From positions 1 through 64,000 of the forward strand of contig JABSQO010000007.1 in the NCBI GenBank assembly GCA_013215775.1: a stretch of DNA of 64,000 bases, in the 5' to 3' direction. The notes below the pieces were generated by a model. The model ran no database searches. It was not told the origin of the DNA and saw only the letters and a list, made by a program, of their open reading frames with translations. The stretch's first letter is position 1. The number at the start of each line of letters is the position of its first letter. This DNA comes from Piscirickettsiaceae bacterium (GTDB lineage Bacteria > Pseudomonadota > Gammaproteobacteria > Nitrosococcales > Methylophagaceae). The translations under genes and the position numbers were made by a program. Shown in pieces: positions 922 through 20,559 of the stretch.

Positions 922-1010
922 AAAAAAGCCCCAACACCGAAAAGGTGCTGAGGCTTTGATATATCTGGTGGGCCTGCAAGGACTTAAACCTTGGACAAAA
1001 GGCTTATGAG
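922..1010 (-). repeat. Displaced 3' half of tRNA-Ile2(CAU) plus terminator (scar B)
   Basis: This copy matches the live tRNA at 20483-20559 from its terminator hairpin through the CCA end, acceptor 3' strand, T-arm and variable region, and stops at the anticodon loop (TTATGAG in plus orientation). The 5' half is absent, so it is not a functional tRNA. It is the most degraded of the five displaced copies, with four substitutions in the tRNA part. The hairpin could still act as a terminator for the gene ending at 1024. Confidence 0.85.
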
Positions 1011-1023
1011 CTAAGCTATTAGA

Positions 1024-2022
1024 TTATAGTGATATAGAAAGGCCTGCGACAATACGAGTATCGAGATCAGTTTGTTTGCCATTCATATTCTCAATTATTG
1101 GCAAACCTACAGAGAGGAACCCACTAAAGTTACCGGAGGAAACCCTTAAGCCTGGTGATAATAATATAGCTGTACCACCAGAGTGCTCTTCAGAAGTTCC
1201 TGAAATTTTATTCTTACGGCGAGTTTCACCGTTTAACTCAATTACGGCATCCCAAGTAATATTTGTTTCACTTGAATCGGAGTGATGCTCATGATTATGA
1301 TTTGAATGATCTTCACCATTGAGTTTGTAGGTGATGGCAAGGTTGTAGCTTAGAATATCGCCAATTTCTGTTGATTGTGAACCTTCAGTCGTCTTATTGA
1401 ACAACACATTGGCATGATAGCTAAATTTCTTGTAGCTGTGGCTGACAGCACCACCAATAAGAAAATCCCATGAACCTGTTCCTGGTTGAAACTCTGTTTC
1501 AAATCTTTGACCGCCATCATCTTTATCATTTGTTTCCCCTGTCGGGGCCTTAAGTCCTAAAAGCAAAGAAATCTCGGTGTCATCTTGTTCAGAAATTCGA
1601 TATTGTCCAAACAGCAACAAATCCCCTAACCCAGAGGAATCTCCATGTCCGTGGGCTTCTGCATCACCATCTTCAATTTCACCTTCACGGATATTTTTTC
1701 GCTCAATGTATGGCAACCTTGCACTTAAGGTTAAATCATCATTAATACCGTAGGCCACGGATAGCGAGGTGCTTATAATTCTATCGACACTATGTACACC
1801 TTCAAGACCTTGATCTGCATAGTCAATTAGTTTCTGGTCACTGAATTCATCATTTTCGATCACTTCAGTTCTGATACCCGCACTCCACATCCCAGCCGGC
1901 ATGGTTGTGGCCGCTATAGTATTGATAGGGCCAGAGGCTTCATTACCAAAAGCAACGGTTGGATGGTCCGCAAGCGCTGGCATCGTGATACAAATCAATG
2001 GAACAATGATAAATCTATACAT
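1024..2022 (-). CDS. Outer-membrane beta-barrel protein with His-rich segments (transporter/MetA-like family)
   Basis: 332 residues from ATG at 2022. A longer frame from TTG at 2049 exists, but the ATG gives a clean signal peptide (MYRFIIVPLICITMPALA). The mature protein is rich in alternating hydrophobic/polar strands and ends in LSISL, with no predicted helices, as expected for an outer-membrane barrel. The pattern (early IAATTMPAGMWS, then SLSVAYGINDDLTLSARLPY) resembles the phenol-degradation MetA-like/transporter family. Two acidic His-rich stretches (near DAEAHGHGD and DHSNHNHEHH) suggest metal contact; this is inference. The substrate is unknown. The gene ends 13 bp from tRNA scar B, so it is the left-most gene of its module. 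Confidence 0.62.
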   Translation of the reverse strand: MYRFIIVPLICITMPALADHPTVAFGNEASGPINTIAATTMPAGMWSAGIRTEVIENDEFSDQKLIDYADQGLEGVHSVDRIISTSLSVAYGINDDLTLSARLPYIERKNIREGEIEDGDAEAHGHGDSSGLGDLLLFGQYRISEQDDTEISLLLGLKAPTGETNDKDDGGQRFETEFQPGTGSWDFLIGGAVSHSYKKFSYHANVLFNKTTEGSQSTEIGDILSYNLAITYKLNGEDHSNHNHEHHSDSSETNITWDAVIELNGETRRKNKISGTSEEHSGGTAILLSPGLRVSSGNFSGFLSVGLPIIENMNGKQTDLDTRIVAGLSISL

Positions 2023-2226
2023 AACTTTACTCGTTACTCGTGCATACAAAGGCCATAGTTTATCTTCAAGGCATGCATCATGAATGTGTTATTTAACTTG
2101 AAATTAGGTTAAATGACTCATTAGTAACATATAATTACTTTTCCCAGATTCAATATACACAGCTTTGATTAAACAAAGGTACCATAGTGCTCAACAGGTA
2201 CATCCAACGATGAGTAAACTTAAAAT

Positions 2227-3498
2227 ATGCCTTGCAAGCTGTCCTTAAATCAAGAGAGGTACATGTTAGCTGAAAAATTTACTAGCGGTAATTACAGCCT
2301 GCCGGTAAGTTATATAATTGAGGGCGCTCTCGATAAGGACAAATTGAGAGCATCTATTATGGCCGTAATGGAACGTCATGATGTGTTGAGGTTGTCGCTA
2401 TCCCGAGGTAGTAAAGTTTCATATGGCTTAAAAGTTAATTCGAAAATAAAATTAATTATTGATGAGCAAACAATAGAAGATGAAAACACTGAACTGATAA
2501 AGAAAAGTATCAATGACTATTTTTATAAAGAAGTTGATTTTAAAGTAGGTTCTCTTGTTAGATTTCAACTGATAAAACAATCAGATAATAAGCATGTTTT
2601 TACATTCTCAATACATCATATGCTCTCTGACGGTATATCAATTACTATATTTATAAAAGATCTACGTGATGCATGGGCTGATATAAGCAGCTACAAATTA
2701 AAACTTAAGTCATCATATATAAAATGTATAAGTGATAACAAACTTTCAGAATTAGAAAATCTAGAAGATTATATATCTTACTGGAAAAGCTACCTTTTAG
2801 GTGCTCGTGATATCACACTGAACTCTGACTACATATCATCTAAAGACAAGAAATATGATAAAAGGATGGTTTCACAGACCATTGGTAAAGAATTAACCCG
2901 AAAAATTGACATACTTTCTAGGCGTTTGGATGTCTCAGTTTTTAACATTTTTTATGCTGTTTATAATATATTAATTTCTAGATACAGCAATGAATCTGAC
3001 ATTTGCACAACATTTCAGAGCTCAGGTCGCCAATTAATAAATGGTTCGGAATCCACAATCGGCTTATTTTCCTGTGCTCTTATATTAAGAGAGAATGTCG
3101 ATAACAATTCAACATTTCGTCATTTGTCTAGCAGCATCAGAGACAAGGTATATAACTGTATTTCAAACCAAAAACTTCCATATCATTATATAATTAGAAA
3201 CACATCAATTCACCCAAAATATGGTATAAATTGGTACCCTAGTACTCCACCGTTAGTATTTGCGGGTTTAAATATATCTAAGCATGAATATACTAGTTGG
3301 CAATCTGATTTTGAACTGAATTTGCATTGTACAATTATTGAGGATGAAATCCTCTTAAACCTACATTATGATTATTATCTTTTTTCAAAAAAACGTGTTT
3401 CTACCATTCTGAAACAATTTGAGAATGTACTCATTCAAATATCGGAAACAGAAAGCACAGACATCAAGCTCTCCGATATAAAGTTAACGGCACTTTGA
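2227..3498 (+). CDS. Stand-alone NRPS-type condensation domain protein
   Basis: 423 residues forming one condensation domain. It begins with the LSLNQERYML segment typical of the first core motif and carries the catalytic HHxxxDG motif as HHMLSDG (about residues 134-140). In known systems such domains join an acyl or aminoacyl group on a carrier protein to an acceptor amine or alcohol. It is not fused to other domains, and it converges on the adenylation-carrier-hydrolase operon (4530-6267), whose products would supply its substrates. The gene is visibly more AT-rich than the core genes, with many AAA, ATA and AAT codons, which suggests transfer. No strong ribosome binding site is visible before the ATG. 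Confidence 0.8.
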   Translation: MPCKLSLNQERYMLAEKFTSGNYSLPVSYIIEGALDKDKLRASIMAVMERHDVLRLSLSRGSKVSYGLKVNSKIKLIIDEQTIEDENTELIKKSINDYFYKEVDFKVGSLVRFQLIKQSDNKHVFTFSIHHMLSDGISITIFIKDLRDAWADISSYKLKLKSSYIKCISDNKLSELENLEDYISYWKSYLLGARDITLNSDYISSKDKKYDKRMVSQTIGKELTRKIDILSRRLDVSVFNIFYAVYNILISRYSNESDICTTFQSSGRQLINGSESTIGLFSCALILRENVDNNSTFRHLSSSIRDKVYNCISNQKLPYHYIIRNTSIHPKYGINWYPSTPPLVFAGLNISKHEYTSWQSDFELNLHCTIIEDEILLNLHYDYYLFSKKRVSTILKQFENVLIQISETESTDIKLSDIKLTAL

Positions 3499-3532
3499 GA
3501 TTATTGGACAGCAACTACCATAGAAATCATAT

Positions 3533-3570
3533 GATTCACTTGGTGAATGCATGCGATATTACAGCATGCA
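3533..3570. repeat. Two inverted repeats between convergent genes
   Basis: ATTCAC-TTG-GTGAAT (3534-3548) is followed by TGCATGC/GCATGCA (3548-3554 and 3564-3570). They lie between the condensation gene and the convergent hydrolase gene, and the second overlaps the hydrolase stop. Neither has a long T-run; they may still form a bidirectional termination structure. Confidence 0.35.
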
Positions 3571-4530
3571 TTTAATCCGTAGTTTAGAGTTTCCTAGCGG
3601 TTTATTGGCGTACTCGATAATGGGAGGACCAAGAATAATATCCAAAAAGCAAGTAAGCATAGCCTCCTTTACAATGGGTATCAGTACATTATGCTTAATA
3701 TTCATATTTTCTGTTGCACTAAAAACCGTTAAAGTTTGGGTTTGAATAGAATTAGATAAATCTCTCGCGTTTGATATGTCTCGCTCAAAATCATCACCGC
3801 AGACATATAGAAGGTTAGACGTGCTTGATTGATGGAAAAGTTTTGTTAGCTCTTCGCTTGCATTATTTCTGGCCTGTTGCCAAGTTGGGTGAGATGGGCC
3901 GCATCCACCAATAGAAATCCCCTTATCAAGTTGGAGGCTAAGCGCTGTCCAAATTGCTGCTAAGCCACCCGAGCTAGTCCCCAGGCTAATTACAGACTTG
4001 TACTCACTTTTATCAATTAAGGAATTTATTTCTGCCATTAAACTTTCAAAATCATCCGCAATGCCAGGCAGACCATTTTGAAACCCATTTTTACTTAGAT
4101 CTTTTAACAGCAAAACATCATATTTATGAGCTGAAATATGCTGAAGGAAGACTGAAATCGGAATCATTAGTCTCTGGGCATTTCCAGCAAAGGCAATTAT
4201 GAGTGTTTTTTCTTTTTTCGAATCAAAAGTAGAAAACATTTGAATAGCCCTTTTGACTCTGTGGCGAATAAAAGGCTCTGGAATTTTCTTTCCGCTTTTA
4301 TTGATCAAGCCAATCAGTTTTTCAATTTCACTTAGGCCATGAAGCTTAAGTTTTATTTTGTGGGAGTGGAAAAATTTGAAATATCGGAAGAATTTCAATC
4401 TGAATCTGAGTTCTTGATACAATTTATAGAGTTCTGATACCGTGAGTTTATTGGCCAGTGCAATATGAACAGAATTTACTTGATTAATAGTTTGGCAACG
4501 GCTAAGTAATCTATTGTAGAGTTTTATCAC
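3559..4530 (-). CDS. Alpha/beta-hydrolase-like protein linked to a carrier protein
   Basis: 323 residues. A central segment reads like an alpha/beta hydrolase: strand TLIIAFAGNA (about 108-117), then a nucleophile elbow GTSSGG (about 200-205) after VISLG, and a late His in MNIKHNVLIP. The N-terminal 90 residues are basic and helical and match nothing I recognise. Its ATG overlaps the carrier-protein stop (ATGA), so the two are translationally coupled. A release or editing thioesterase role for the carrier-bound intermediate is plausible but inferred. Base composition is AT-rich like its neighbours. Confidence 0.55.
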   Translation of the reverse strand: MIKLYNRLLSRCQTINQVNSVHIALANKLTVSELYKLYQELRFRLKFFRYFKFFHSHKIKLKLHGLSEIEKLIGLINKSGKKIPEPFIRHRVKRAIQMFSTFDSKKEKTLIIAFAGNAQRLMIPISVFLQHISAHKYDVLLLKDLSKNGFQNGLPGIADDFESLMAEINSLIDKSEYKSVISLGTSSGGLAAIWTALSLQLDKGISIGGCGPSHPTWQQARNNASEELTKLFHQSSTSNLLYVCGDDFERDISNARDLSNSIQTQTLTVFSATENMNIKHNVLIPIVKEAMLTCFLDIILGPPIIEYANKPLGNSKLRIKCML

Positions 4531-4793
4531 GGTAGAAGATTCTGAATTTCATGTGTTAAGCCGTCAAGACAGCTCAATTGAGAAAGCTGCTCAGGGACAA
4601 TTGATACACCTAACTCAAGTTCGATGGCAATACATAATTCCATACTGGCAAGACTATCCATATTCAAATCTTCAAATATAGTATTTTGCTTGCCACTGAC
4701 AAAGGCTTGTTGGGATGCGGCGCTGTACAATGAAAAGATGTTTACTTCCCCCATCATTTTAATCAATACTTTCTTTATTTCATCATTATTCAT
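4527..4793 (-). CDS. Acyl/peptidyl carrier protein
   Basis: 88 residues, the usual size of a discrete carrier protein. The phosphopantetheine attachment serine sits in EDLNMDSLASMEL (about residues 43-55; the Ser follows Asp). It is flanked by acidic helices (IAIELELGVSI), as in the ACP/PCP fold. It overlaps the adenylation gene by 8 nt and the hydrolase gene by 4 nt, so the three form one tight operon. No phosphopantetheinyl transferase gene is nearby, so activation must rely on one encoded elsewhere. Confidence 0.82.
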   Translation of the reverse strand: MNNDEIKKVLIKMMGEVNIFSLYSAASQQAFVSGKQNTIFEDLNMDSLASMELCIAIELELGVSIVPEQLSQLSCLDGLTHEIQNLLP

Positions 4794-6267
4794 TTAAACG
4801 TCCTGTTGTAAACATTAAGCGTATCTTGTGTTTCTGTACTTTACCCATTTCATTGGTTGGTAATGAATCTAAAATAAGAATCTTCCTCGGTGATCTCAGT
4901 GCTAATTTCTTATGAGAAAAAGCTTGTAACTCTGTGGCTGTAATTACAGAATTGCTATAGAGTTCAACTGCAGCTACGGGTATCTGACCATGCACATGAG
5001 ATGAAATGCCAATTGCTGCAGCTGTTTTCACCGTAGGATGACATTCAAGAGCACGCTCAATCTCAATGGGGAAAATATTAATACCATTCAAAATTATCAT
5101 CTCATCCCGTCGACTATGGATAATCAATTCACCATTATTTTTAATGGAGCCCATATCGCCAGGGTAAAACCACCCATCTTTAAATGTTCTTGCACTCTTT
5201 TCTGGGTCGTTGAAATAATGTGTTGCCATACCCTCTGCTCTTAGGCGTACATGACCAATCGTGTTTGAGGGTATTATTTTGTCATTCTGGTCGACTATCT
5301 CAACTTCAACGCCATTCATCGGGAGGCCAACAGATTCTGAAGTTTGGTGAGTATTAGGGTTTGTGATTGAGCTGCTACCAAACTCAGTGGCACCATATAT
5401 AATATAAAGTTCAGGCGTGACGTTCTCTGATATTTGCCGCCTCAACTCGACAGGTATAACAGAACCACTCACTGCTAATTTAGTCGTTACTGGAAAATCT
5501 AGTGTGCGGTTACTGCCAGCCCAAATAAGATTAGCTGCATGTAATCTTGAAATATCTATAAGTGTCACATTGTGTTGGTGGCAAAATTCAGGCAGTGAAA
5601 AAGAGGAGGGGGAACGGAAAACTGCTGTACCGCCCATAAAACTAGTATATAAGCGATGCCTCTTACTATTATTATGTTCTATTGAGGAGGGCAAGAGAAC
5701 TCTTTCTGTAGCATAGTGGGGGTAACGTAGCGCCTGGTTAATTATTTGCTCCTGAGTAAACCCTACCATTGTTAATCCACCGGTAGTGCCCGATGTTCGG
5801 AGATAAATTTGCTCTTCTAAATGCCCTGTCCCCAAGGTTATATTATCTTTGTCAACGGATCCCGTATGACTAAAAACCATGTCAGCGGACAGCAAAACAA
5901 ATCCAGAATTTGTTAAACGATACTCCTCATCGACTGCCAGTACATCGGTTAGCCCCACATGTTCAGCAAGTTGTATACGAACAGATAGTGGATCATGAGT
6001 AGCAAGATTGACTTGCTTAGCGCCAAGAGCAAGTAGAGCGAGGGAGGAAATTAGATGAAGCACTTCATCAGCTATGCTAAGGCCTACTATGGATTCCTGA
6101 GTGATGTTGTTTTTATTAAGTATGGATGCGCAGACTAAAATTAGTCGAAATAAATCTGGATAGGTCAGGCTAATACCATCAGCAACAATAGCCGTGTCAT
6201 CTGGACGTAGTGCCGAATGGCGTTTAATCTCTGATAAAAATGATGGAGGCTTAACTAGGAGCTTCAT
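4786..6267 (-). CDS. AMP-binding (adenylation) enzyme
   Basis: 493 residues of the ANL superfamily, which activate a carboxylate as acyl-AMP and transfer it to a thiol. Visible core motifs are the phosphate loop YLRTSGTTGG (about 152-161), YGATEFG, GDMG, the hinge-region DEMIILNGINIFP and a C-terminal GKVQKHK with the catalytic Lys. The phosphate loop is unusual after TSGTTG: it continues GLTMVGF where a Lys-bearing P-(K/R)-G is normal. The first gene of the operon with the carrier protein and hydrolase, it most likely loads that carrier. The substrate (amino, aryl or fatty acid) cannot be read by eye. Confidence 0.8.
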   Translation of the reverse strand: MKLLVKPPSFLSEIKRHSALRPDDTAIVADGISLTYPDLFRLILVCASILNKNNITQESIVGLSIADEVLHLISSLALLALGAKQVNLATHDPLSVRIQLAEHVGLTDVLAVDEEYRLTNSGFVLLSADMVFSHTGSVDKDNITLGTGHLEEQIYLRTSGTTGGLTMVGFTQEQIINQALRYPHYATERVLLPSSIEHNNSKRHRLYTSFMGGTAVFRSPSSFSLPEFCHQHNVTLIDISRLHAANLIWAGSNRTLDFPVTTKLAVSGSVIPVELRRQISENVTPELYIIYGATEFGSSSITNPNTHQTSESVGLPMNGVEVEIVDQNDKIIPSNTIGHVRLRAEGMATHYFNDPEKSARTFKDGWFYPGDMGSIKNNGELIIHSRRDEMIILNGINIFPIEIERALECHPTVKTAAAIGISSHVHGQIPVAAVELYSNSVITATELQAFSHKKLALRSPRKILILDSLPTNEMGKVQKHKIRLMFTTGRLNE

Positions 6268-6363
6268 TTTGGGAGATAGTCTTTGAGTCCATACAAGTTA
6301 GGATTACCTGCGAGGATACTACACATAACGGCTAAAACAGAGGACAATTCTTTCCCATATTTA

Positions 6364-6445
6364 AAGTCCTAACACCGAAAAGATGCTGAGGTTTTGATAT
6401 ATGGGGACCTACAGGGACTTGAACCTTGGACAAAGGGATTATGAG
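6364..6445 (-). repeat. Displaced 3' half of tRNA-Ile2(CAU) plus decayed terminator (scar C)
   Basis: Same extent as the other copies: terminator remnant, CCA end, T-arm and anticodon loop (ATTATGAG). It differs from the live tRNA by a one-base deletion and two substitutions near the acceptor end, and the left arm of its terminator hairpin is eroded. It separates the NRPS-like module from the nhaA module. Between 6268 and 6622 I see this scar and no supported gene. Confidence 0.85.
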
Positions 6446-6622
6446 GCAGCTTACCTGTTTAATTAATCAATAACTTACAACGCTTGCCAACTTTAAAAGC
6501 TACCTCACCCTGCCCTATTTTTACCACAATCAACTTTGGTTGGGCACAAAATTGACACGATTCATAGTTTGTACCTATTCTTTTACTATAGAATCTGCCA
6601 ACAACTAAATTAGGCGTAAATA

Positions 6623-7987
6623 ATGACAACAAAAACAAATTCAACATCAGGTATTTACAATGCTCCTTGGGAAAAGAGCTTTGACAAACTCCTGACCCCC
6701 TTCGAAGAATTTATTCACCGACAAACAACCAGTGGATTACTGTTAATGGGTACGGCTGTACTCGCATTAATTCTGGCCAATAGTGCGTTATCTTCTGGGT
6801 ATTTACACATTCTGCATACTCCCATTAGTATTGGTATCGGAAGTTGGTCGGTAGAGATGAGTCTTCATCATTGGATCAATGATGGTCTGATGGCACTCTT
6901 TTTCTTTGTGGTTGGACTAGAGTTGAAACGCGAAATATTGGTAGGTGAGTTGGCAACAATACGCAATGCTGTTCTACCCATCTCAGCAGCAATAGGAGGA
7001 ATGGTTGTACCCGCGTTGATTTATTTTGCCATTAATCCAGAAGGTGATGCCGCCATTGGCTGGGGAATTCCCATGGCTACGGACATTGCTTTTGCTATTG
7101 GAGCATTAGCCTTGTTGGCAAGTCGTGTGCCTAAAGCATTAATTACCTTTTTGGTTGCTCTGGCTATTGTGGATGATCTAGGTGCCGTGGTTGTGATAGC
7201 TGCATTTTACACGGACACGATAGCAGTGATTCCACTCACAATAGCGGCTGCTTTATTTTCGTTATTACTCGCATTTAATATGTTTGGTATCCGTAAAACA
7301 GCACCCTATTTTATTGTTGCAGTGTTTCTTTGGTATGCCCTGCTATTGTCAGGTGTTCACCCCACCTTGGCAGGTATACTTGGTGCAATGTCAGTACCTG
7401 CCATTCCTAAATATGATCCACAACGATTTAGTGAACATGTTAAGAAGCTAATACAACGTTTTGATGCTAGCTATCAACCAGGGAAAAGCATTATGACAAA
7501 TGATGAGCTGAGTGCGGTGGTACATAAATTGGAATATAGCGTTGAAAGTGTTGGTGTGCCTCTTAAGCGTCTGGAACATGTTTGGCATATTCCTGTTGCT
7601 TACTTAGTGATCCCCATTTTTGCTTTAGCCAATGCGGGCATCGGGCTAGACTTTTCATCTATAGTCTCAACGATGCTACATCCCGTTACGTTAGGTGTCA
7701 TGCTTGGTTTGATATTGGGGAAATTCATCGGTATCGCTGGTGTGAGTTGGCTCATGCTGAAATTGAACTTAGCCGAGTTACCCAAAGATACCAAATTCAC
7801 TCAAATTGCAGGTGTGTCGCTATTGGCAGGGATAGGTTTTACGATGTCTATCTTTGTTGCTCAGCTTGGATTCGGTGAAAATGAACAGCTATTGTTGATG
7901 GCTAAAACAGGGATTCTTATCGCATCTTCATTAGCTGGAGTTGCTGGGTTTATTTGGCTTTATTTAGTAAGTACACCTAAAGATTAA
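6623..7987 (+). CDS. nhaA: Na+/H+ antiporter NhaA
   Basis: 454 residues, longer than the roughly 390 of the Escherichia coli protein because of an N-terminal extension and a hydrophilic insert around residues 265-305. Twelve hydrophobic segments are apparent. The paired aspartates that bind and exchange Na+ and protons are present in ALAIVDDLGAVV (about residues 188-189). The family motif LMALFFFVVGLELKRE is near residue 95. It expels Na+ in exchange for H+ across the inner membrane, which suits a salt-adapted bacterium. It is the first gene after scar C and is read away from it. Confidence 0.95.
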   Translation: MTTKTNSTSGIYNAPWEKSFDKLLTPFEEFIHRQTTSGLLLMGTAVLALILANSALSSGYLHILHTPISIGIGSWSVEMSLHHWINDGLMALFFFVVGLELKREILVGELATIRNAVLPISAAIGGMVVPALIYFAINPEGDAAIGWGIPMATDIAFAIGALALLASRVPKALITFLVALAIVDDLGAVVVIAAFYTDTIAVIPLTIAAALFSLLLAFNMFGIRKTAPYFIVAVFLWYALLLSGVHPTLAGILGAMSVPAIPKYDPQRFSEHVKKLIQRFDASYQPGKSIMTNDELSAVVHKLEYSVESVGVPLKRLEHVWHIPVAYLVIPIFALANAGIGLDFSSIVSTMLHPVTLGVMLGLILGKFIGIAGVSWLMLKLNLAELPKDTKFTQIAGVSLLAGIGFTMSIFVAQLGFGENEQLLLMAKTGILIASSLAGVAGFIWLYLVSTPKD

Positions 7988-8116
7988 AAAATAAGTACTC
8001 CGTAAGAAAATTACTGCCAAAATTCATTAGTACCAAGGTACAGTAGGAATTACGAACTATAGGGGCTATTATTAAGCAATATTTAAGTCGAATTAATGTT
8101 CGATGGAGGCTGTGCC

Positions 8117-10186: not shown

Positions 10187-10217
10187 CAACGCCACAAAAT
10201 AGTAACAGGAAAATTTA

Positions 10218-11627: not shown

Positions 11628-11795
11628 TACATATTCTAACACTCCAATCCTGTTGACCGTGAAAAGGGACGTTAGGTCGTTAATCATGAAAACAGCTGTA
11701 GATTTTAAGTCATTTCTTCCCTAAAAATCACATGTTAACCATCAAGAAACGGTGGTTTGTCATTGGTTATACAAACAAATAGAAAAGAAAAAACA

Positions 11796-11885: not shown

Positions 11886-11891
11886 GAAATA

Positions 11892-12042: not shown

Positions 12043-12239
12043 TCTATGTTCATATTTGTTGTACTCAAATAACTTCTTGTGCCTATTGCTTAGCTTATCC
12101 AGCTTAAAGATTGATTTAAGTTTTATCTCTTTTTAAATAAAACTTGGGTTACTATGCGCTAGTAACATTTTCCGACTTGTTCCTCATGTATGTCGTGCAG
12201 GAACAGATGTTCCGTCATTGAATAATGGAAGAACTGATT

Positions 12240-12548
12240 ATGAGTGCAGATCTGTATGAACAAGTGAAACAAAACCCTAAATTCCATCAACTTGTGAAAC
12301 AACGTTCTCGTTGGGCATGGGGACTGTCTTCAATTATTTTGATTATGTATTTTTCCTTTATTTTGCTGATTGCCTTTTTTCCTGCATGGTTAGGCCAATC
12401 ACTCACCGGTGGTGTGATCACGATAGGCATTCCTATTGGTGTGTTGATTATTGTGATGGCATTTGTATTGACAGGAGTCTACGTGCACAAAGCCAATAAG
12501 GACTTTGATCGCATTAACGAAGAAATCATCAGTGAGATAAAACAATGA
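12240..12548 (+). CDS. yjcH: DUF485 membrane protein (YjcH-like) paired with ActP
   Basis: 102 residues from ATG 12240, preceded by GGAAG at 12228-12232; an upstream in-frame ATG at 12225 lacks a binding site. Two hydrophobic helices (about 25-47 and 57-80) lie between charged ends, the DUF485 layout. The stop overlaps the actP start (ATGA at 12545-12548), so the pair is translationally coupled, as in E. coli acs-yjcH-actP. Its biochemical role is not established; it is assumed to assist the symporter. Confidence 0.88.
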
Positions 12549-14197
12549 AAACTTGTCTCTTTTTGATGTCATTTCTTTTTACTTCTTTCAGTTGGGCTGG
12601 GGGTGCGTTAAGCGGTGCGGTGGAACAACAGCCATTGAATATTCCTGCCGTTGTGATGTTTTTAGTATTTGTGGCAGCGACATTGGTCATTACTTATTGG
12701 GCTGCCAAAAGGATGCGTTCAACCTCTGATTATTATGCTGCCGGTGGTGGTATTACTGGTTTTCAGAATGGCTTAGCCATTGCTGGTGACTATATGTCGG
12801 CCGCTTCTTTTTTGGGTATTTCAGGTCTGGTGTATTTATCCGGTTATGACGGCCTTATTTATTCCATCGGTTTTTTGATCGGTTGGCCACTTATTCTATT
12901 TCTAGTGGCTGAACGCTTACGTAATTTGGGAAAATATACCTTTGCCGATGTGGTCTCGTATCGCTTAGAACAGTTACCTATTCGAACCTTATCCGCCTTT
13001 GGTACCTTGGCCGTGGTGGCTTTGTATTTGATTGCCCAAATGGTGGGCGCTGGGAAATTAATCCAACTGTTATTTGGCTTGCCTTATCACTACGCGGTAG
13101 TAATGGTGGGTGTGTTGATGGTGTTATATGTGATGTTTGGTGGCATGTTAGCCACCACATGGGTGCAAATTATCAAAGCAGTGTTGTTGTTGTTGGGTGC
13201 TAGTTTTATGGCTTTTATGGTGCTCAAACACGTTGACTTTGATTTGAACGTTTTATTTGAACAAGCGGTGTCGGTACATCCCAAAGGTATTGATATTATG
13301 GCGCCAGGTGGGTTGCTCTCCGATCCGATTTCTGCCATTTCACTAGGAGTTGCCTTGATTTTTGGTACGGCAGGTTTACCACATATATTAATGCGATTTT
13401 TTACCGTCTCTGATGCCAAGCAGGCAAGGCGTTCGGTATTTTTTGCCACTGGTTTTATAGGATATTTTTATATACTCACCTTTGTAATTGGCTTTGGTGC
13501 GATTGTCCTATTATCAACGAATCCAGAATTTTTTGATGTGAACGGTCTGCTGCTCGGTGGCAATAATATGGCGGCTATTCATTTGTCAAAAGCAGTAGGA
13601 GGCGATTTATTTCTTGGGTTTATCTCTGCCGTTGCCTTTGCCACTATTTTAGCGGTGGTGTCGGGCCTGACGTTGGCTGGCGCTTCGGCCATTTCACACG
13701 ATTTATATGCCAGTGTTATTAAAAAAGGCAACAGTACGGCTAAACAAGAAATTCGGGTATCAAAAATAGCCACGGTTATTTTAGGTGCGGTGGCGATCTA
13801 TCTTGGCATTTTATTTGAAGAACAAAATATTGCCTTCATGGTTGGTTTGGCTTTTGCCATCGCGGCTAGTGCCAACTTCCCAACCTTAATTTTATCAATG
13901 TATTGGAAAGATTTGACCACACGAGGTGCGTTTATTGGTGGTTTTGCCGGATTATTAACGGCGGTCGGGCTGGTAATTGTCGGCCCAATCGTGTGGGTCG
14001 ATATTTTGGGTAACACGGAGGCGTTATTTCCTTATAAATACCCGGCCTTATTTTCTGTCTCCATTGCCTTTCTGTGTATCTGGTTTTTTTCAATTACGGA
14101 TCGTAGTCAACGAGCAGAAAATGAACGAAAAAAGTTTGAACATCAATTTATTCGTTCTCAAACCGGTATTGGTTCTCATCAGGCAGCAGAGCATTAA
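12545..14197 (+). CDS. actP: Cation/acetate symporter ActP
   Basis: 550 residues of the sodium:solute symporter family. An N-terminal signal-like hydrophobic stretch is followed by about 13 membrane helices. Family blocks include [23 protein letters not shown] (written here only to mark residues 60-82) and [15 protein letters not shown] near residue 275. It takes up acetate and similar short monocarboxylates with Na+. Unlike E. coli, no acetyl-CoA synthetase gene is adjacent; the yjcH-actP pair alone fills the module between scars D and E. Confidence 0.93.
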
Positions 14198-14344
14198 AAT
14201 GTAAAGAGATAGCGGTGCTCACTATTTTAAGAGGGTTCTCATAGTATCGGAAGGTGTTGACAATGGTTCTGATCAGCTGGCTCGTTATGCAGATAATGTG
14301 TCTCTCGGTAGTGGTCAGTTTTGACACAAACCTGACACAAATAG

Positions 14345-14433
14345 TAAAAAAGCCCCAACCCACGCTAGTGAGATGAGGCTTTGATATAGTTGGTGGGCCT
14401 ACGGACTTGAACCTTGGACAAAGGGATTATGAG
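14345..14433 (-). repeat. Displaced 3' half of tRNA-Ile2(CAU) plus variant terminator (scar E)
   Basis: The tRNA part matches the live gene except for a 2-nt deletion in the T-stem (CTACGGACTT for CTACAAGGACTT) and ends at ATTATGAG. Its terminator hairpin carries CACGCTAGTG in place of the CACCGAAAAGATG of the live copy; only scar F shares this version. The 35 bp beyond the break (to about 14475) closely match those beyond scar D. Otherwise 14198-14679 contains only a short possible coding tail (14205-14324). Confidence 0.87.
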
Positions 14434-14691
14434 TAACGCTAGACAATCAAGCTGGCTGACCCCTTGATTCTCCTTTGAGGATTGAGGCCAATTAGCCGTA
14501 TTACTGTTTTCAATACAGATTAGTGATAAAAAACAATTGTTAGAGGAATAAAGGTATTATCAAGTTCGATTCTTAAACTGATTATCTGTTTTAGATTAAG
14601 AAACGTGAGCGATAGATACAAAAACAAATAACCCCGTAAAAATTTAAGTAAAAACGCTGTATTTTTTCTTTTTTCAGGGATGCGACAATCT

Positions 14692-17600
14692 ATGCTAGAC
14701 ATGCCGAAAATTTCGATTAGAGTGAATGTGCTGACGGTGATGTTGTTGATCGCAGGTGCTATGGCTGCGTCACTGTTGTTATCGCAATACTATTTCAGCC
14801 AAAAACTGGCGATTGAATCTACTCATAAAACCTTTGAACTGATTTTTAAAAACATTACCGAGCATATTCGCGTTGAGGGAACCAATACTCGAAATATGCT
14901 TACGGCTAAAAGTCAGCAAACGGAATTACTTGAGCCGATTACGTTTGATCCTTTCCACCCATCTTTAAAGGGGTTAGTCGAAGCGCTTCAAGTTGGGCAA
15001 AACTTATATGCTATCTATTTTGCTCAACAAAATGGTCATTTTTATGAAGTGGTCAACATGCAGGACAAGCAATCACTTTTTGATGTATATAAAGCGCCTG
15101 AACAAACCGCATGGACCGTTATTACCATTATCGATAATCAGCAACAGCTGGCATTTTTAAACGATAATTTAGAGCTAATTAATAAAACTATCACCGCGAA
15201 GAAATACGACCCTCGAGTGCGCCCGTGGTATGTAGATGCCATAAATGCTGAAGGAGTCATTCGTACTAAGCCGTATTTATTTTCCCATCTTAATCAAGCG
15301 GGCATCACTTACGCTACACAGCTTGAAAGTAAAGGTGTGGTGTTAGCGCTTGATTTCACCATGGAGCAGTTTAATAAAATTTTGTCTTTGCAAAAAGTAG
15401 ATGCAAAGTCAGAAGTTTTTCTTATCTCATCGAAAGGTACCAAGATTGCTTCATCGGCATTTATAAATGAAAAAGAGTCACAGCAGGCAGAGGAAGAATT
15501 AATAAGCAAGCCAATAGCGTTTAGCGAAGAAGAAGTCGCGTATATAAAAAATCATCATGCCTTATTGATTTCCAATGAAAATGACTGGCCCCCCTTTGAT
15601 TTTGAAGAAGCCGGTGAACCGAAGGGATTCAGTATCGATCTTATGCGACTGTTAAGTAAAAAAAGTGGCTTGAAACTACAGTTTATGAATGGCTATCAAT
15701 GGTCTGAAATAATGACTATGTTTAAGAAAAGAGAATTAGACATCGTTCATGCCTTGTACAAAACACAAAAACGGGAAGAAATGGGCCTGTTTAGTGACTC
15801 AACTTTTAGCTTTAAAAATTATTTTATTGTGCCAAAAGGTGCACCCGATATCGCCCAGTTTAGTGATATAAAAGGTGAAACCGTAGTGGTAGTAAAAGGC
15901 TGGGCGACGCAGAGTTTTATGCAAAAAAATCATCCTGCTATTCCCACCTTAGTCGTGGATAGTGTTGAGGAAGCTTTTTTGGCTCTTTCAAAAGGTGAAG
16001 CTGATTTTATGATCGAGAGCAAAGAATCTTTTCTATATCAGCAACAACGTCTTTCGATTGAGAATTTAAAAATAAGTGGCTGGAATAAAGAGCTTGATAA
16101 GGGCCAAGCAAACAATATTTATATCATGGTGCAAAACGATCAGCCTATTCTGCTTTCAATAATTAATAAAACATTAGCGGCTTTAACGGCACAAGAACAA
16201 CAAAACTTACAGCAAAAGTGGTTTAAAAATATTGATGTTAGATCGGACATCAAGACGCTGGATTCAGAACTAATGAAATTAGTGATAGCTAACAAAACAG
16301 ATGTGGTTGTTGAATATGAAAAAACGGGAGATCAGGGTCACTATTTTGGAATGATTTCCCCTTTAAGAGACGGGTCATTTTTAGGGGTAAAAATTGATGC
16401 AGATGCGTTATTAAAACCCTATATAGAGAATATTAAAACATCATTACTCATTGCTGCGGTGCTGCTATTGATTGCCTTACTGACGGTGTTAAGAGCTACA
16501 AACTACATAGTAAGGCCGATTAAAGCACTGATATTAGAAAATGAGAAAATCAAAAATAGAGAGTTTGATGACGTAAAAAATATTAAAACTCATATACTTG
16601 AATTGGAAGAATTATCGGTTTCGTTTGTATCAATGTCCCACAGTATTCAGCAGTTTGAAAAAGTTCAAGAAGAATTGCTTGATGCCATGATCAAACTGAT
16701 TGCCGAAGCCATTGATGAAAAATCACCGTATACAGGGGGCCACTGTAAACGAGTGCCTGTAATAGCGTTTTTATTGTTGGATGCTGCAAGTCGATCTAAA
16801 GAAGGTGTTTTTGAGGATTTTTCCTTCACCGGTGAAGATGAATTAAGAGAATTTGAAATTGGTGCTTGGTTACATGATTGTGGCAAGGTCACTACTCCAG
16901 AATATGTTGTTGATAAGGCGACAAAACTAGAGACTATTTATAATCGAATTAATGAAATCAGAATGCGCTTTGAAGTGTTATGGCGAGACGCAGAGATCGA
17001 CTATTTAAATAAAAAAATATCGTTAGAAGACTTACAAGAAAAACGAACTAGCTTAGTGGAAGACTTTGAATTTATTGCCGAGGCTAATATTGGTGGTGAG
17101 TTTATGGGCGACGATCAAAAAGACCGAGTGAAAGCCATTGCAGAGCAACAGTGGTCACGAAATTTTGATGATAAGGTGGGATTGAGTGAGATAGAAAAAG
17201 AGCGGTTTATTGGTAGCGAGGATGAGGCATTGCCTGTGATCGAAAATTTATTAAGCGATAAAACTCACCATATCGTGCAACGTACAAACTTCAATCATGA
17301 AACCTATGAGTCCCAAGGTTTCAAATTACCAGTACCAGAGCATCTATACAACTATGGTGAAGTTTATAATCTTTGCATTGAGCGAGGCACATTAAGCCCG
17401 GAAGAGCGTTATAAGATTAATGAACATGTGATTATGAGCATTAAAATGCTTGAAAAAATACCATTTCCAGAGAATATGCAAAATATTCCTGAATATGCAG
17501 GAACACATCATGAGACGCTTATCGGCACCGGTTATCCGCGGAAACTCACCAAAGAAGAGCTTTCTGTTCCAGCGAGAATCATGGCGATTGCTGATATTTA

Positions 17601-17811
17601 TGAAGCGTTAACGGCGTCCGATCGGCCGTATAAAAAAGCAAAAACACTGTCTGCTTCGATTAAAATCATGAGCTTTATGGTCAAAGACCAGCATATTGAT
17701 GCTGATCTATTTAGGCTCTTTCTAAGTAGTGGTGTGTATAAAAAATATGCTGAAAAATATCTGAACCCTGAACAGATAGATGACGTGGATATCGCAAGTT
17801 ATTTAACATAA
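14692..17811 (+). CDS. Membrane HD-GYP phosphodiesterase with Cache and periplasmic-binding-type sensor domains
   Basis: 1039 residues from ATG 14692 (AGGGA lies 11 nt upstream; an in-frame ATG at 14680 overlaps that site). Order: membrane helix (about 8-28), extracytoplasmic dCache-like domain with DPRVRPWY (about 170), a type-3 solute-binding-like domain (about 275-510, NDWPPFDFEE), a second helix (about 578-598), a HAMP-like linker and an HD-GYP domain. The HD-GYP residues are intact: HD at 728-729 (HDCGK), HH at 939-940 (THHE), then GTGYP and a late ADIYEALTASDRPYK. Such enzymes hydrolyse cyclic di-GMP. It is the only gene between scars E and F. Confidence 0.9.
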   Translation: MLDMPKISIRVNVLTVMLLIAGAMAASLLLSQYYFSQKLAIESTHKTFELIFKNITEHIRVEGTNTRNMLTAKSQQTELLEPITFDPFHPSLKGLVEALQVGQNLYAIYFAQQNGHFYEVVNMQDKQSLFDVYKAPEQTAWTVITIIDNQQQLAFLNDNLELINKTITAKKYDPRVRPWYVDAINAEGVIRTKPYLFSHLNQAGITYATQLESKGVVLALDFTMEQFNKILSLQKVDAKSEVFLISSKGTKIASSAFINEKESQQAEEELISKPIAFSEEEVAYIKNHHALLISNENDWPPFDFEEAGEPKGFSIDLMRLLSKKSGLKLQFMNGYQWSEIMTMFKKRELDIVHALYKTQKREEMGLFSDSTFSFKNYFIVPKGAPDIAQFSDIKGETVVVVKGWATQSFMQKNHPAIPTLVVDSVEEAFLALSKGEADFMIESKESFLYQQQRLSIENLKISGWNKELDKGQANNIYIMVQNDQPILLSIINKTLAALTAQEQQNLQQKWFKNIDVRSDIKTLDSELMKLVIANKTDVVVEYEKTGDQGHYFGMISPLRDGSFLGVKIDADALLKPYIENIKTSLLIAAVLLLIALLTVLRATNYIVRPIKALILENEKIKNREFDDVKNIKTHILELEELSVSFVSMSHSIQQFEKVQEELLDAMIKLIAEAIDEKSPYTGGHCKRVPVIAFLLLDAASRSKEGVFEDFSFTGEDELREFEIGAWLHDCGKVTTPEYVVDKATKLETIYNRINEIRMRFEVLWRDAEIDYLNKKISLEDLQEKRTSLVEDFEFIAEANIGGEFMGDDQKDRVKAIAEQQWSRNFDDKVGLSEIEKERFIGSEDEALPVIENLLSDKTHHIVQRTNFNHETYESQGFKLPVPEHLYNYGEVYNLCIERGTLSPEERYKINEHVIMSIKMLEKIPFPENMQNIPEYAGTHHETLIGTGYPRKLTKEELSVPARIMAIADIYEALTASDRPYKKAKTLSASIKIMSFMVKDQHIDADLFRLFLSSGVYKKYAEKYLNPEQIDDVDIASYLT

Positions 17812-17850
17812 GTAGTTAAATCGCTTGGAGTAAGATTATCAATTAAACTT

Positions 17851-17893
17851 GCCTATCCAGGCACTATCCAGGCACTATCCAGCACTATCCAGC
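17851..17893. repeat. Short tandem repeat of CCAGGCACTAT units
   Basis: Three near-identical units, CCAGGCACTAT, CCAGGCACTAT and CCAGCACTAT, follow each other and end with a partial CCAG. They lie 40 bp after the HD-GYP stop. No coding or structural role is visible; a slippage product is likely. Confidence 0.7.
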
Positions 17894-17907
17894 AAACGAA
17901 AGGTTTA

Positions 17908-18108
17908 CTATTTCACGAAGCTTAAGATTAATAGTTGCAAGGCATATATGAAACGATGTTGATATTCTTCACCAATTGTTGGATAGGCTTTGCCGTTAGA
18001 GATCTTAAATAGCCAGAGATGAGCTTCTTTAACGGATATGACGGGTAAATATTTTCCTTGCGATGCACAATTTTGGTTTGTTCGGACGCTATTGTTAATA
18101 ATGATGTT
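17908..18108 (-). pseudogene. C-terminal fragment of an unidentified protein
   Basis: Reading leftward from 18108, 66 codons stay open to TAG at 17908-17910 and give a protein-like sequence (QGKYLPVISVKEAHLWLF..., ...GEEYQHRFIYALQLL...). There is no start codon with a binding site, and an in-frame stop lies directly upstream. It abuts scar F and looks like the tail of a gene cut at an element boundary. I do not recognise the family, and a chance open frame remains possible. Confidence 0.3.
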
Positions 18109-18123
18109 TCAAAGTTACACCAA

Positions 18124-18213
18124 CAAAAAAGCCCCAACCCACGCTAGTGAGATGAGGCTTTGATATAGATGGTGGGCCTACAAGGACTTGAACCTTGGAC
18201 AAAGGGATTATGG
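18124..18213 (-). repeat. Displaced 3' half of tRNA-Ile2(CAU) plus variant terminator (scar F)
   Basis: Identical to the live tRNA from the CCA end to the anticodon triplet; divergence starts immediately after ATTATG. It carries the same variant terminator stem as scar E. It is the nearest displaced copy to the live tRNA, 2.2 kb away, and the least decayed, as expected if insertions accumulate at the tRNA. Confidence 0.88.
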
Positions 18214-18304
18214 GCAAGCCGATCACTTACTTATCAACAATATGGTGAAATAGCGTTAAAGCTCGTCATTATCTATAGGAACAATTTTTACTCTGTACTT
18301 GTGA

Positions 18305-18334
18305 GGGCAAAACCAATCGAGTCTGACCTTGCCC
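18305..18334 (-). repeat. REP-like hairpin
   Basis: GGGCAA (18305-18310) pairs with TTGCCC (18329-18334) around a loop containing, on the minus strand, GGTCAGACTCGATTGG. From memory this loop resembles repetitive palindromes linked to REP-associated tyrosine transposases in marine gammaproteobacteria. Only one copy was noticed here. It lies 10 bp after the stop of the minus-strand secreted-protein gene and could also terminate it. Confidence 0.35.
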
Positions 18335-18343
18335 CCTTTGGTT

Positions 18344-18805
18344 TCATAATTTACAGATCTCACCACTGTAACGGACCAGTCCTTCCATATTATTCAAATC
18401 TACTAAGCCGTAACTTACGAAATCTCCTTCATAACCTTTGAATGTACCAGTCGTAGATTCTTTCTCAATTGAGTAATTAATCTCAATCATAAAATTACCC
18501 GCTTTACCTGGTACTTTGGTTAACTCAGCATGATCTACCGTGTGGAATGAACCACCTGTATTGTTTAAGAAATAATGGTTCAAATCCATTTCTAGACCAC
18601 TCTTAGTTTCACGTTGAACCGTAATTGTGCCGCTTGCTGCGCTAAAACTGCCAATTAATGGTGCTGTAATTCTCACCGAACCATCATCTTGAGGAGAAAA
18701 TGTTGGCATTGCCATACCACCTATTGGCGTACACACTTTCTGACCAGAAAAAGCACTCGTTGAAATGATGACCAATAAACTTGCAACTGCTATTTTGTTA
18801 AACAT
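18344..18805 (-). CDS. Secreted/periplasmic protein of unknown function
   Basis: 153 residues with a clear signal peptide (MFNKIAVASLLVIISTSAFS, cleavage near residue 20). The mature part is about 133 residues and beta-rich. It has Cys in KVCTPIGG near its start and Cys in EICKL at the extreme end, which could form a disulfide linking the termini. The family is not recognised. It lies in the module with the tautomerase and TetR genes but is separated from the tautomerase gene by about 140 bp, so co-transcription is uncertain. Confidence 0.65.
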   Translation of the reverse strand: MFNKIAVASLLVIISTSAFSGQKVCTPIGGMAMPTFSPQDDGSVRITAPLIGSFSAASGTITVQRETKSGLEMDLNHYFLNNTGGSFHTVDHAELTKVPGKAGNFMIEINYSIEKESTTGTFKGYEGDFVSYGLVDLNNMEGLVRYSGEICKL

Positions 18806-18945
18806 ATGATTTCTCTTTTTTAAGTTAAATGTCTTATAGATAACAAGAGGCTCATTTTAAGATTCAGCCGGTTGATACCGATTATTTTGTAGAATTTGTC
18901 ATTCCCCCACCCTATTCAGGATATGAATTAGGTAGGAAAGACCGA

Positions 18946-19362
18946 TTATCCTTTTGAAATTTCTTCACCAATTTCTTCATTGGTCATAGCGATGCCATTA
19001 AAATTCCATGACCCATCTGCCGTATGAATAACATTTGAGTAAATATTTTCTACAGGCTGTTTTCCGCCAGATAACGCTCTAATAATGTCAGTTGCTTCGG
19101 CAAAATGAGCTAATTGAATTTCTCTTGAAGCAAAAGCAAATGAAGGCACCTTCCATTCCATCCAAACGCCGGAAAACTCTTCTCCACCTGAGAAGGTAGA
19201 GTTTTTTGGTAGCACTGAAACATGGGCAGTTACATTAGGTGTCATTGCTTTATTACCTAAAAGTCCATGATGCTTAAGCATTGAATTAGTGATTTTTTGA
19301 ACCGCTTCTTTTTCAGAACCAGCAGGGATAACTCCTTCAGTAAAAGTAAGTGTTAAGGGCAT
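18946..19362 (-). CDS. Tautomerase-superfamily protein
   Basis: 138 residues from ATG 19362, chosen because GGAG lies 6 nt upstream and because it places proline directly after methionine (MPLTLTFTEG); an in-frame ATG four codons earlier has no site. In the 4-oxalocrotonate tautomerase superfamily the processed N-terminal Pro is the catalytic base. The opening strand followed by AGSEKEAVQKITNSMLKHHG fits that fold, and the length of about 138 suggests a fused two-unit form. It probably acts on a keto-enol substrate. It is divergent from the TetR gene and shares the operator region with it. Confidence 0.6.
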   Translation of the reverse strand: MPLTLTFTEGVIPAGSEKEAVQKITNSMLKHHGLLGNKAMTPNVTAHVSVLPKNSTFSGGEEFSGVWMEWKVPSFAFASREIQLAHFAEATDIIRALSGGKQPVENIYSNVIHTADGSWNFNGIAMTNEEIGEEISKG

Positions 19363-19441
19363 AGTATTCTCCAATAATATATGGGTTAATTGTTAGTGAT
19401 TAATCGAAGTTGTTTTCAAGAAACTTCAGTTATACTATAAA

Positions 19442-19527
19442 ATATAGAGGTCGTTATATTCTGTAGTTGAGGAGATATTATATAACGATCGTTATATTGT
19501 CAAGATAAAATATAACAGTCGCTATAT
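19442..19527. promoter_or_regulatory. Triple TetR-type operator between the tautomerase and tetR genes
   Basis: The centre holds a perfect 18-bp palindrome, ATATAACGATCGTTATAT (19480-19497). A weaker copy lies at 19510-19527 (ATATAACAGTCGCTATAT) and a half-matching one at 19442-19459 whose right arm TCGTTATAT is exact. Centres are 38 and 30 bp apart. This is the form expected for autoregulated TetR-family repressors controlling a divergent gene. Confidence 0.75.
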
Positions 19528-19581
19528 TATTAGGAGACACAGAGGTATAATGGGATCATTATCAGTACTTCAGATATTGAA

Positions 19582-20184
19582 ATGACGAAAGTAAGCAAAA
19601 GGCAAGAAACTAGAAAACGTATTATTAACGCAGCGAGCCAAGGTTTTAGAAGCAATGGTTATGCGGGAATTGGTGTTGACAGTATAGCTAAAGAGGCTGG
19701 AGTTACTTCGGGTGCCTTTTATGCCCACTTAGGTTCAAAAGATGGTGCATTTGAAGCAGCATTGTCGGTAGGCCTTGATGAAGTGATTGCTGCAATCCCT
19801 GAATTTCAACTTCAACATGGTAAGAAATGGATTGTGGCTTTTACAGATTATTATCTAGGCCAAGCCCATCGTGATAACCTTTCGTGTGGTTGTGCAATGA
19901 CAACCCTATCTCCCGAAGTTGTTCGCACTAAACCTGAATTACACGAAATATATGAAGAAAAAATGATCGAGATAGTTGAGCTTATGGCTCAAGGTCTTAT
20001 TGGAAATTCGCATGAAGAATGTCTATTTAAGGCCTGGGCGGTATTAGGTATTTTAATCGGTGGGCTTACTATGGCCAGAGCAGTAGCTTCTATTAAGACT
20101 GCAGATCAAATCGCTATTTCTATCACCAAAGCAGCAGTCAATGCTGCTGGGCAAACCAAAGAAGCTGTGGATCAGAGCCGATGA
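19582..20184 (+). CDS. TetR/AcrR-family transcriptional regulator
   Basis: 200 residues. The N-terminal helix-turn-helix is typical (RIINAASQGFRSNGYAGIG, then SIAKEAGVTSGAFYAHLGSKD, residues 15-55). The C-terminal ligand domain has Cys-rich NLSCGCAMTTLSPEV (about 98-112), as seen in a TetR subgroup that may sense reactive compounds; this is inference. It most likely represses itself and the divergent tautomerase gene through the palindromes at 19442-19527. Between its stop and the tRNA terminator (20185-20437) I see no supported gene. Confidence 0.9.
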   Translation: MTKVSKRQETRKRIINAASQGFRSNGYAGIGVDSIAKEAGVTSGAFYAHLGSKDGAFEAALSVGLDEVIAAIPEFQLQHGKKWIVAFTDYYLGQAHRDNLSCGCAMTTLSPEVVRTKPELHEIYEEKMIEIVELMAQGLIGNSHEECLFKAWAVLGILIGGLTMARAVASIKTADQIAISITKAAVNAAGQTKEAVDQSR

Positions 20185-20437
20185 AATGAACGCTTAGGAT
20201 ATTAACCTCCTATTCTTCTTATTAAGGGCACTCGACCGAAATCCACTCCAATGAACCATTTAGCCTCGAATATTAGTAGCCACCTTAGGCCATAAATCCC
20301 AATGACCGCTTTGGGTTGTGGATTCAACCGGTTGATGCAACACATATATTAAATCGTGCTGAATTAGCAAAAATTCACGGCGTAAGATTGATAAATGGCT
20401 ATATTTCATTTCACCATTGCCCCCCACCTAACCCCAA

Positions 20438-20475
20438 TAAAAAAGCCCCAACACCGAAAAGATGCTGAGGCTTTG
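20438..20475 (-). terminator. Terminator of the tRNA (and rpoD operon)
   Basis: On the minus strand AAAGCCTCAGCATC...GGTGTTGGGGCTTT forms a long imperfect stem followed by a T-run. It begins 8 nt after the tRNA CCA end. This same hairpin travels with every displaced tRNA half in the window. Confidence 0.8.
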
Positions 20476-20482
20476 CTGTATA

Positions 20483-20559
20483 TGGTGGGCCTACAAGGAC
20501 TTGAACCTTGGACAAAGGGATTATGAGTCCCCTGCTCTAACCAACTGAGCTATAGGCCC
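20483..20559 (-). tRNA. ileX: tRNA with CAU anticodon, probably tRNA-Ile2
   Basis: 77 nt with encoded CCA. The acceptor stem GGGCCTA/TAGGCCC, D-arm, anticodon stem GGGGA/TCCCT, loop CTCATAA and T-arm CAAGG-TTCAAGT-CCTTG all pair. The anticodon CAT is at 20523-20525. The GACTCATAATC...CTTTGTC and TTCAAGT segments resemble E. coli tRNA-Ile2 (read AUA after lysidine modification) more than elongator tRNA-Met, and E. coli ileX also lies beside rpoD. It starts only 7 nt after the rpoD stop on the same strand, so it may be cut from the rpoD transcript. It is the live target of the scar array. Confidence 0.93.

Follow-up and report, generated by a model that had tools for sequence, protein, structure and literature searches.

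Beside rpoD in a 64,000-nt window of genomic DNA (contig C46:1-64000 of a 2.22-Mb genome in 48 contigs), a complete tRNA gene is followed on its 3' side by five displaced copies of its own 3' half, all in one orientation. We consider it very likely that these copies form an accretion array, left by elements that integrated one after another at the anticodon loop of this tRNA-Ile2 gene. The five copies, already described in a first-pass annotation of the same DNA, were recovered in agreement by a repeat search, by BLAST against the window's own genome and by a profile built from the copies. The live gene has the anticodon CAT and is called tRNA-Met(cat) by ARAGORN. We read it as tRNA-Ile2 because it lies downstream of rpoD, the position of ileX in Escherichia coli. 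The array and its conserved neighbour are as follows, from the live gene outward.

20567-22363, minus strand: rpoD, the conserved neighbour 5' of the tRNA, compared with relatives
20483-20559, minus strand: live tRNA, anticodon CAT, the integration target beside rpoD (ARAGORN; Rfam RF00005, 73.1 bits)
20434-20482, minus strand: terminator of the live tRNA, GCCTCAG...GGGGC family
18120-18214, minus strand: displaced unit F, tRNA 3' half and terminator of subtype CTCATCTCACTAGCGTGGGTTGGGG (repeats, BLAST, profile)
14341-14434, minus strand: displaced unit E, with a 2-nt deletion in the tRNA part and the same terminator subtype as F (repeats, BLAST, profile)
11793-11886, minus strand: displaced unit D (repeats, BLAST, profile)
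6361-6445, minus strand: displaced unit C (repeats, BLAST, profile)
917-1010, minus strand: displaced unit B (repeats, BLAST, profile)

Structure and breakpoint of the displaced units

The displaced units are about 94 bp long and begin at the 5' edge of the 7-nt anticodon loop. Read in tRNA sense, they consist of the anticodon loop, the 3' stem, the T arm, the 3' strand of the acceptor, CCA and the terminator. They map to plus-strand matches, that is, their tRNA sense is on the minus strand as in the live tRNA, and their E-values in the own-genome BLAST (2.3e-20 to 5.1e-32) are far beyond chance. The same search finds a sixth displaced copy at C1:266335, 6.7 kb from the contig end and in an orientation that could extend the array. 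The first-pass annotation had suggested a search for further copies to the left of the window. The copy on C1 is one more outside the window; C46 itself cannot be read further left because it starts at window base 1. The exact tRNA-Ile2 half is present in eleven public records, four of them labelled Methylophaga sp.

We compared the units with those of a genus set of 29 genomes, which includes the window's own (G000), and with those of another genus. Across 14 displaced copies from nine genus genomes, identity to the live tRNA from the loop on averages 40.9 of 45 positions (range 34-45), and on the tRNA 5' side it averages 8.6 of 32 (range 3-13). For 2000 random 32-mers of the window, compared with the tRNA 5' side, the mean is 8.0 and the maximum 16. 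The seven copies read in the other genus (six genomes) break likewise, with 40-41 of 45 from the loop and 3-9 of 32 on the 5' side, which brings the displaced Ile2 units that break at the anticodon loop to 21 of the 21 read. The crossover point is thus fixed within the target gene for Ile2 copies; the tRNA-Leu units described below are less uniform. When a tyrosine integrase inserts DNA into a tRNA gene by strand exchange in the anticodon loop, it leaves a break of this kind. The breakpoint at the loop and the random level of identity on the 5' side are therefore consistent with cleavage there by such an enzyme. Moreover, all clear copies linked to a live tRNA lie on its 3' side and in its orientation (13 of 13: five in the window, three in other genomes of the genus and five in another genus). 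Neither the 13 linked nor the 14 aligned copies include a weak unit in G022 (34 bits), and matches to the terminator only (e.g., in G020 and G015) were left out of all unit counts.

Candidate enzymes are found at the same tRNA in relatives. In G003 and G004, the live tRNA and a displaced copy have a PF00589 integrase gene between them; in G005 such a gene is adjacent to the live tRNA, and in G012 it lies 3' of the tRNA. G010 has an integrase-like open reading frame (ORF) of 182 amino acids (aa) 3' of the live tRNA. The G003 element (L057:12374-17707) looks like a possible phage satellite, since it is predicted to encode a P2-type replication protein and a Shedu-like protein in addition to an integrase that has an arm-binding domain. 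Stacked insertions at one tRNA, as proposed in the first-pass annotation, are thus supported by the loop breakpoint, by the orientation of the copies and by these integrase-bearing elements. A phage carrier was also considered and set aside: exact patterns of the tRNA halves gave 0 viral contigs each, and none of the 9 stretches that matched a pattern for the integrase of the G005 element encodes a relative, absence from such exact or near searches being weak evidence.

In the mechanism that we propose, elements whose attachment site is a tRNA-Ile2 3' half with its terminator would integrate serially, through recombination in the 7-nt anticodon loop that is probably catalysed by a tyrosine integrase. 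The element's own 3' half and terminator would join the resident 5' half, so that the tRNA stays whole, and in the order of events that we infer, each insertion would shift the previous 3' half away from the gene.

Cargo and the locus in related genomes

The units delimit five modules. Their cargo was assigned from Pfam searches with 15 module proteins, of which 4 gave no match.

18215-20433: module 1, probably the youngest; two small ORFs without Pfam match (minus strand) and a TetR regulator (plus strand)
14435-18119: module 2; a 1043-aa SBP_bac_3 / HD_5 signalling protein at 14680-17811 (plus strand)
11887-14340: module 3; DUF485 protein at 12225-12548 and sodium:solute symporter at 12545-14197 (both plus strand)
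6446-11792: module 4; NhaA antiporter, subtilase, CDP-alcohol phosphatidyltransferase at 10476-11129 and cytidylyltransferase at 11172-11627
1011-6360: module 5; condensation-domain protein, carrier protein, AMP-binding ligase and two ORFs without Pfam match

No integrase, relaxase or phage family is among the Pfam matches of these proteins.

The junction between rpoD and tRNA-Ile2 is readable in 26 of the 29 genus genomes; left out were G008, where the tRNA is not beside rpoD, and G021 and G027, which have no readable junction. Content at the locus varies among the 26, from empty to occupied. Six sites are empty (G011, G014, G023-G026), with a conserved gene 102-523 bp past the tRNA and no displaced copy among the matches listed. 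The empty-site neighbourhood comes in three versions, whose genes are conserved in genome pairs, three of the six genomes serving as their own reference; a 546-aa gene of this neighbourhood has an 83% identical counterpart on C48 of the window's genome. A displaced Ile2 copy is present in 10 of the 29 genomes (G000-G005, G009, G016, G021 and, weakly, G022), the window's genome having the most. In the rest of the family, partial copies occur in 6 of 28 genomes (E <= 1e-9).

Two of the module 4 genes are shared with relatives at unusual similarity. Window 10331-11886, which holds the phosphatidyltransferase and cytidylyltransferase genes and unit D, is 90.8% identical in DNA to G002, and the match stops at the end of the anticodon loop. 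With G003, the identity is 88.6% over window 10439-11640. In the same genome pairs, rpoD is 78.5% (G002) and 76.8% (G003) identical. Synonymous divergence (dS) of the two shared genes is 0.23 and 0.20 with G002 and 0.30 and 0.44 with G003, as compared to 1.60 and 1.83, respectively, for rpoD. Judged by these divergences, the gene pair has evidently been transferred horizontally. Its ratio of nonsynonymous to synonymous divergence (dN/dS) with G002 is 0.12-0.13, and the cargo is therefore under purifying selection. In G003, the pair lies just past the displaced unit of the integrase-bearing element and in the window beyond three modules, positions that fit the order predicted by accretion. Relatives of the cytidylyltransferase (74-95% identity) are found in seven other genomes, of which only G003's is known to be at the tRNA-Ile2 locus. 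Taken together, accretion of horizontally acquired elements is well supported.

Several observations weigh against this reading. The first-pass annotation had damage in the tRNA part broadly growing with distance from the live gene, with copy F intact. The identities over 45 nt are 44, 34 (ungapped), 44, 40 and 41 for F, E, D, C and B, a weak and non-monotonic trend. The 2-nt deletion described for E is indeed present, whereas F carries one change in the anticodon loop and was wrongly called undamaged. The copy on C1 (43 of 45) is better kept than some copies nearer the tRNA and perhaps lies farther out, and in a genome of 48 contigs the left end of the array is unseen. A six-frame profile search found no integrase remnant in window 1-20434 (best E = 6.3). 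This search recovered a 95-aa integrase fragment (L064) that was absent from its profile; its other positive controls, L050 and L052, had their integrases in the profile. Moreover, the inner flank of the window's displaced units recurs in none of the integrase-bearing elements read in relatives. Similarity just past units D and E, at a distance of up to about 10 bp (11892-11924 and 14439-14471), might have been an attachment arm. It is a dispersed palindromic repeat, AATCAAGCTGGCTGACCCCTTGATT, that has matches in 18 of the 29 genus genomes, some of them as opposed pairs, like repetitive extragenic palindromic (REP) elements. Because this repeat is dispersed genus-wide, the similarity is uninformative on attachment, and the attachment-arm reading was rejected.

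The comparison with relatives has its own counterpoints. The left end of the shared match, at 10331, is not at a unit, and the match covers 1.5 kb of a 5.3-kb module; in G002, the pair lies with a decayed unit on C18, a contig without the tRNA. Finally, the empty sites of six of the 26 genomes show the tRNA without displaced copy, as expected from the earlier proposal, but each of the six comes from one clade, whose tRNA-Ile2 has an altered anticodon stem (TCGA versus TCCC). This altered stem is found in nine of the 26 genomes (G011, G013, G014, G018, G022-G026), eight of which are without the shared terminator. Among the 17 genomes with the window's tRNA form no empty site was found, some of these loci ending at a contig edge. 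The altered stem is perhaps an escape from integrases.

A second array at tRNA-Leu(UAA) and the terminator family

The same genome has another array, which looks like the one at tRNA-Ile2. At C14:386-22005 (L049, L149), nine 3'-half copies of tRNA-Leu(UAA) are found, with terminator. Five of the eight intervals between them hold a single ORF of at least 80 aa, namely one of 104 aa, a putative lipoprotein of 217 aa, an HbpS-like protein, an isochorismatase and one of 118 aa. Among the remaining intervals, one holds TetR, HlyD and AcrB genes and two are longer. The HbpS-like and isochorismatase genes cover most of their Pfam profiles. No integrase was found in the array; a match with E = 0.03 lies beyond 22.5 kb and the others have E > 1. 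Not all tRNA-Leu units lie in the C14 run, because a decayed tRNA-Leu half with terminator is present at C12:25093-25141 (L262) and a unit end at C1:23923-23975 (L263).

A live tRNA-Leu(UAA) is absent from the tRNA genes found in the assembly. The left end of C14 cuts a RIO1 gene. This suggests that the live tRNA-Leu lies just off C14, since RIO1 directly follows the live tRNA-Leu in G002, G003 and G011. The flank of the unit at C14:17729 resembles the far attachment end of the integrase-bearing G005 element, with a local score of 44 as compared to 26 for the 99.9% point of shuffled sequences, in a comparison of 325 pairs in which the row L052_2021, tRNA-Ile2 itself, was kept. The units at C14:386, 846, 1623 and 3420 start in the variable arm or T stem (profile positions 16-30) and not at the anticodon loop, which may reflect truncation or another integrase class.

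A third tRNA is scarred as well: C3:13373-13423 (L048:5347-5423) holds the 3' half of tRNA-Thr(TGT) and a terminator, displaced from the live tRNA, which is on C47.

Several results connect the two main targets. We read the flanks of RIO1 in 21 genomes, leaving out a distant match (30%) in G013. RIO1 comes directly after live tRNA-Leu in three of them (those named above) and directly after live tRNA-Ile2 in two (G006, G022). In five it follows a displaced or decayed unit, of Ile2 in G004 and of Leu in G008, G009, G025 and G028, and in one a lone terminator (G015); eight have no unit upstream, and in two the contig ends. Moreover, the elements of G004, at tRNA-Ile2, and of G005, at tRNA-Leu, share their gene order. 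They are 83% and 89% identical in DNA in the two stretches nearest the tRNA and 65-70% over most of the rest, and their integrases are 60% identical in protein.

Terminators of the GCCTCAG...GGGGC family follow tRNA-Ile2, tRNA-Asn, tRNA-Phe and tRNA-Thr(TGT), as judged by eye among 31 tRNA genes listed, and also the tRNA-Leu units. The underlying pattern had flagged Asn, Ile2, Thr(TGT) and Ser(TGA), of which Ser(TGA) was dropped, and Phe was added by eye. The extraction of terminator subtypes cut some terminators inside the loop and was used solely for the subtypes visible. Another terminator is common to G007, G010 and G015, whose integrases at tRNA-Leu are closely related, and displaced copies of the other genus carry other terminators. 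We infer that the terminator travels with the element. As a marker of integrase type it is not clean: the integrases of G003 and G004 are distant, about 22% identical, yet their terminators are related, and the other genus differs.

Alternative explanations and known systems

How the modules moved is less certain than that they accumulated. We give little better than an even chance to the window's modules being integrase-less cassettes, mobilisable in cis or in trans, that use the integrase of another element. The alternative, to which we assign a substantial probability short of even, is that they are remnants of complete elements (phage satellites or islands) that have lost their own integrase by deletion and do not move without an integrase in cis. 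Integrase-bearing elements of about 6-10 kb are indeed present at tRNA-Ile2 in G003 and G004, and short integrase-like ORFs (95, 122 and 182 aa) occur in G021 and G010; of these three, two are close to or at the end of a contig, and the one of 122 aa is next to tRNA-Leu. Some intervals of the tRNA-Leu array also hold possible ORF fragments (104 aa). Decay of complete elements is harder to reconcile with the lack of any detected integrase remnant in the five modules and with the single genes (HbpS-like, isochorismatase) that cover most of their Pfam profiles between neighbouring tRNA-Leu units, a result that random deletion would not readily produce.

It is unlikely that, after a first insertion, cassettes were swapped mainly by homologous recombination through the units or terminators, e.g., by natural transformation. 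One terminator family behind several tRNAs of the genus, and RIO1 with its leader behind either tRNA-Ile2 or tRNA-Leu, would suit such swapping, which leaves the 21 of 21 breakpoints at the loop unexplained. Furthermore, no 8- to 10-mer is strongly over-represented in 300,352 bases of the genome, which counts against one kind of uptake signal only; the terminator as uptake signal was rejected on this result.

A further possibility, which we regard as rather improbable, is an integron-like capture of cassettes based on tRNAs. A family of elements with tyrosine integrases would act in trans on cassettes of one to a few genes that lack an integrase and carry a portable site of tRNA 3' half and terminator, and both elements and cassettes would change target between Ile2 and Leu(UAA). 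It is partly supported by the related elements of G004 and G005 and by RIO1 at both tRNAs, and weakened because the difference between these two elements is not confined to the integrase. We found no paper on a target switch between tRNA-Ile2 and tRNA-Leu in the literature, where no search was aimed at it.

It is very improbable that the units represent a dispersed repeat, or a mobile terminator, with no more than a resemblance to a tRNA end: related terminators behind several tRNAs, the Ile2 unit of G002 on a contig without the tRNA, and the decayed or partial tRNA-Leu units on C12 and C1 would be expected of such a repeat, whereas displaced tRNA-Ile2 halves are found only on C46 and C1 among the own-genome matches listed (the remaining matches listed are on C3 to the tRNA-Thr half, on C14 to terminators and otherwise to other tRNA genes), and all 13 clear linked copies lie 3' of a live tRNA. 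A chromosomal integron array, driven by IntI at recombination sites derived from tRNA halves, is scarcely credible: integrases over the TIGR02249 cut-off are present in 11 of the 29 genus genomes and the single genes of the tRNA-Leu array mostly have one orientation, whereas the window's genome has 0 matches over the cut-off (only an intI-like fragment, positions 1-49, at C48:4602-4748 and partial Xer-like matches), G004, G021 and G024 have displaced units yet no match over the cut-off, and the unit, as judged by eye with no attC search made, is a colinear tRNA 3' half and not an attC hairpin.

At this locus, the history of gene gain at a single point of the chromosome can be read, and related genomes have the same site empty, occupied once or occupied several times. 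With two arrays in one genome, cargo without integrase and a family of elements at two tRNAs, it is well suited to asking how cassettes without integrase move and how integrating elements change their target. Both questions are relevant to additive genomic islands generally.

The array can be compared with known systems. In cis-mobilisable elements (CIMEs) and tandem island accretion (in part from PMC3146451), modules without integrase are flanked by copies of the attachment site and stacked beside the target. Here, too, attachment-site copies flank the modules, in one orientation and on the 3' side of the target. Our array differs in that five modules lie in a row, no resident integrase was found and the tRNA terminator is inside the unit; mobilisation in cis is putative. 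The ssrA islands of Dehalococcoides lie in tandem with 28 direct repeats of the target 3' end, and 15 islands are without the integration module (PMC3146451). Like our modules, they are stacked between repeats of the end of an RNA gene, and many of them lack integration genes. They use a serine recombinase, the T loop of tmRNA and a 20-bp repeat, whereas our array has relatives with tyrosine integrases, the anticodon loop and a unit of about 94 bp.

In two groups of aquatic bacteria, cassettes or islands have been described next to direct repeats of part of a tRNA, at fGI-2 of Methylophilaceae (PMC10872708) and in Ca. Actinomarinales, where several tRNAs serve as targets (PMC7771536). Additive islands are described for Alteromonas (PMC5217437). 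Our locus shares with these additive flexible islands the variable content at one tRNA locus and the direct repeats of a partial tRNA at cassette ends. Their repeat is given as 20 bp or without a length, as opposed to half a tRNA with terminator, two arrays and related elements at two tRNAs here. Tycheposons (Hackl et al. 2023), as described second-hand in PMC10872708, are likewise tRNA-bound cargo elements of aquatic bacteria; that second-hand account gives a tyrosine recombinase as their mark. No such recombinase was found in the modules of the window, and one is present at the same tRNA in relatives. Integron cassettes are a functional analogy, as small gene cassettes parted by a recombination site, and differ in that the window's genome lacks an integron integrase over the cut-off and that the units are tRNA halves. 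Thus, the array works like cis-mobilisable accretion islands or additive flexible islands and is not an integron; it represents a known mode of gene gain, of which it is a long example with no integrase genes found in its modules.

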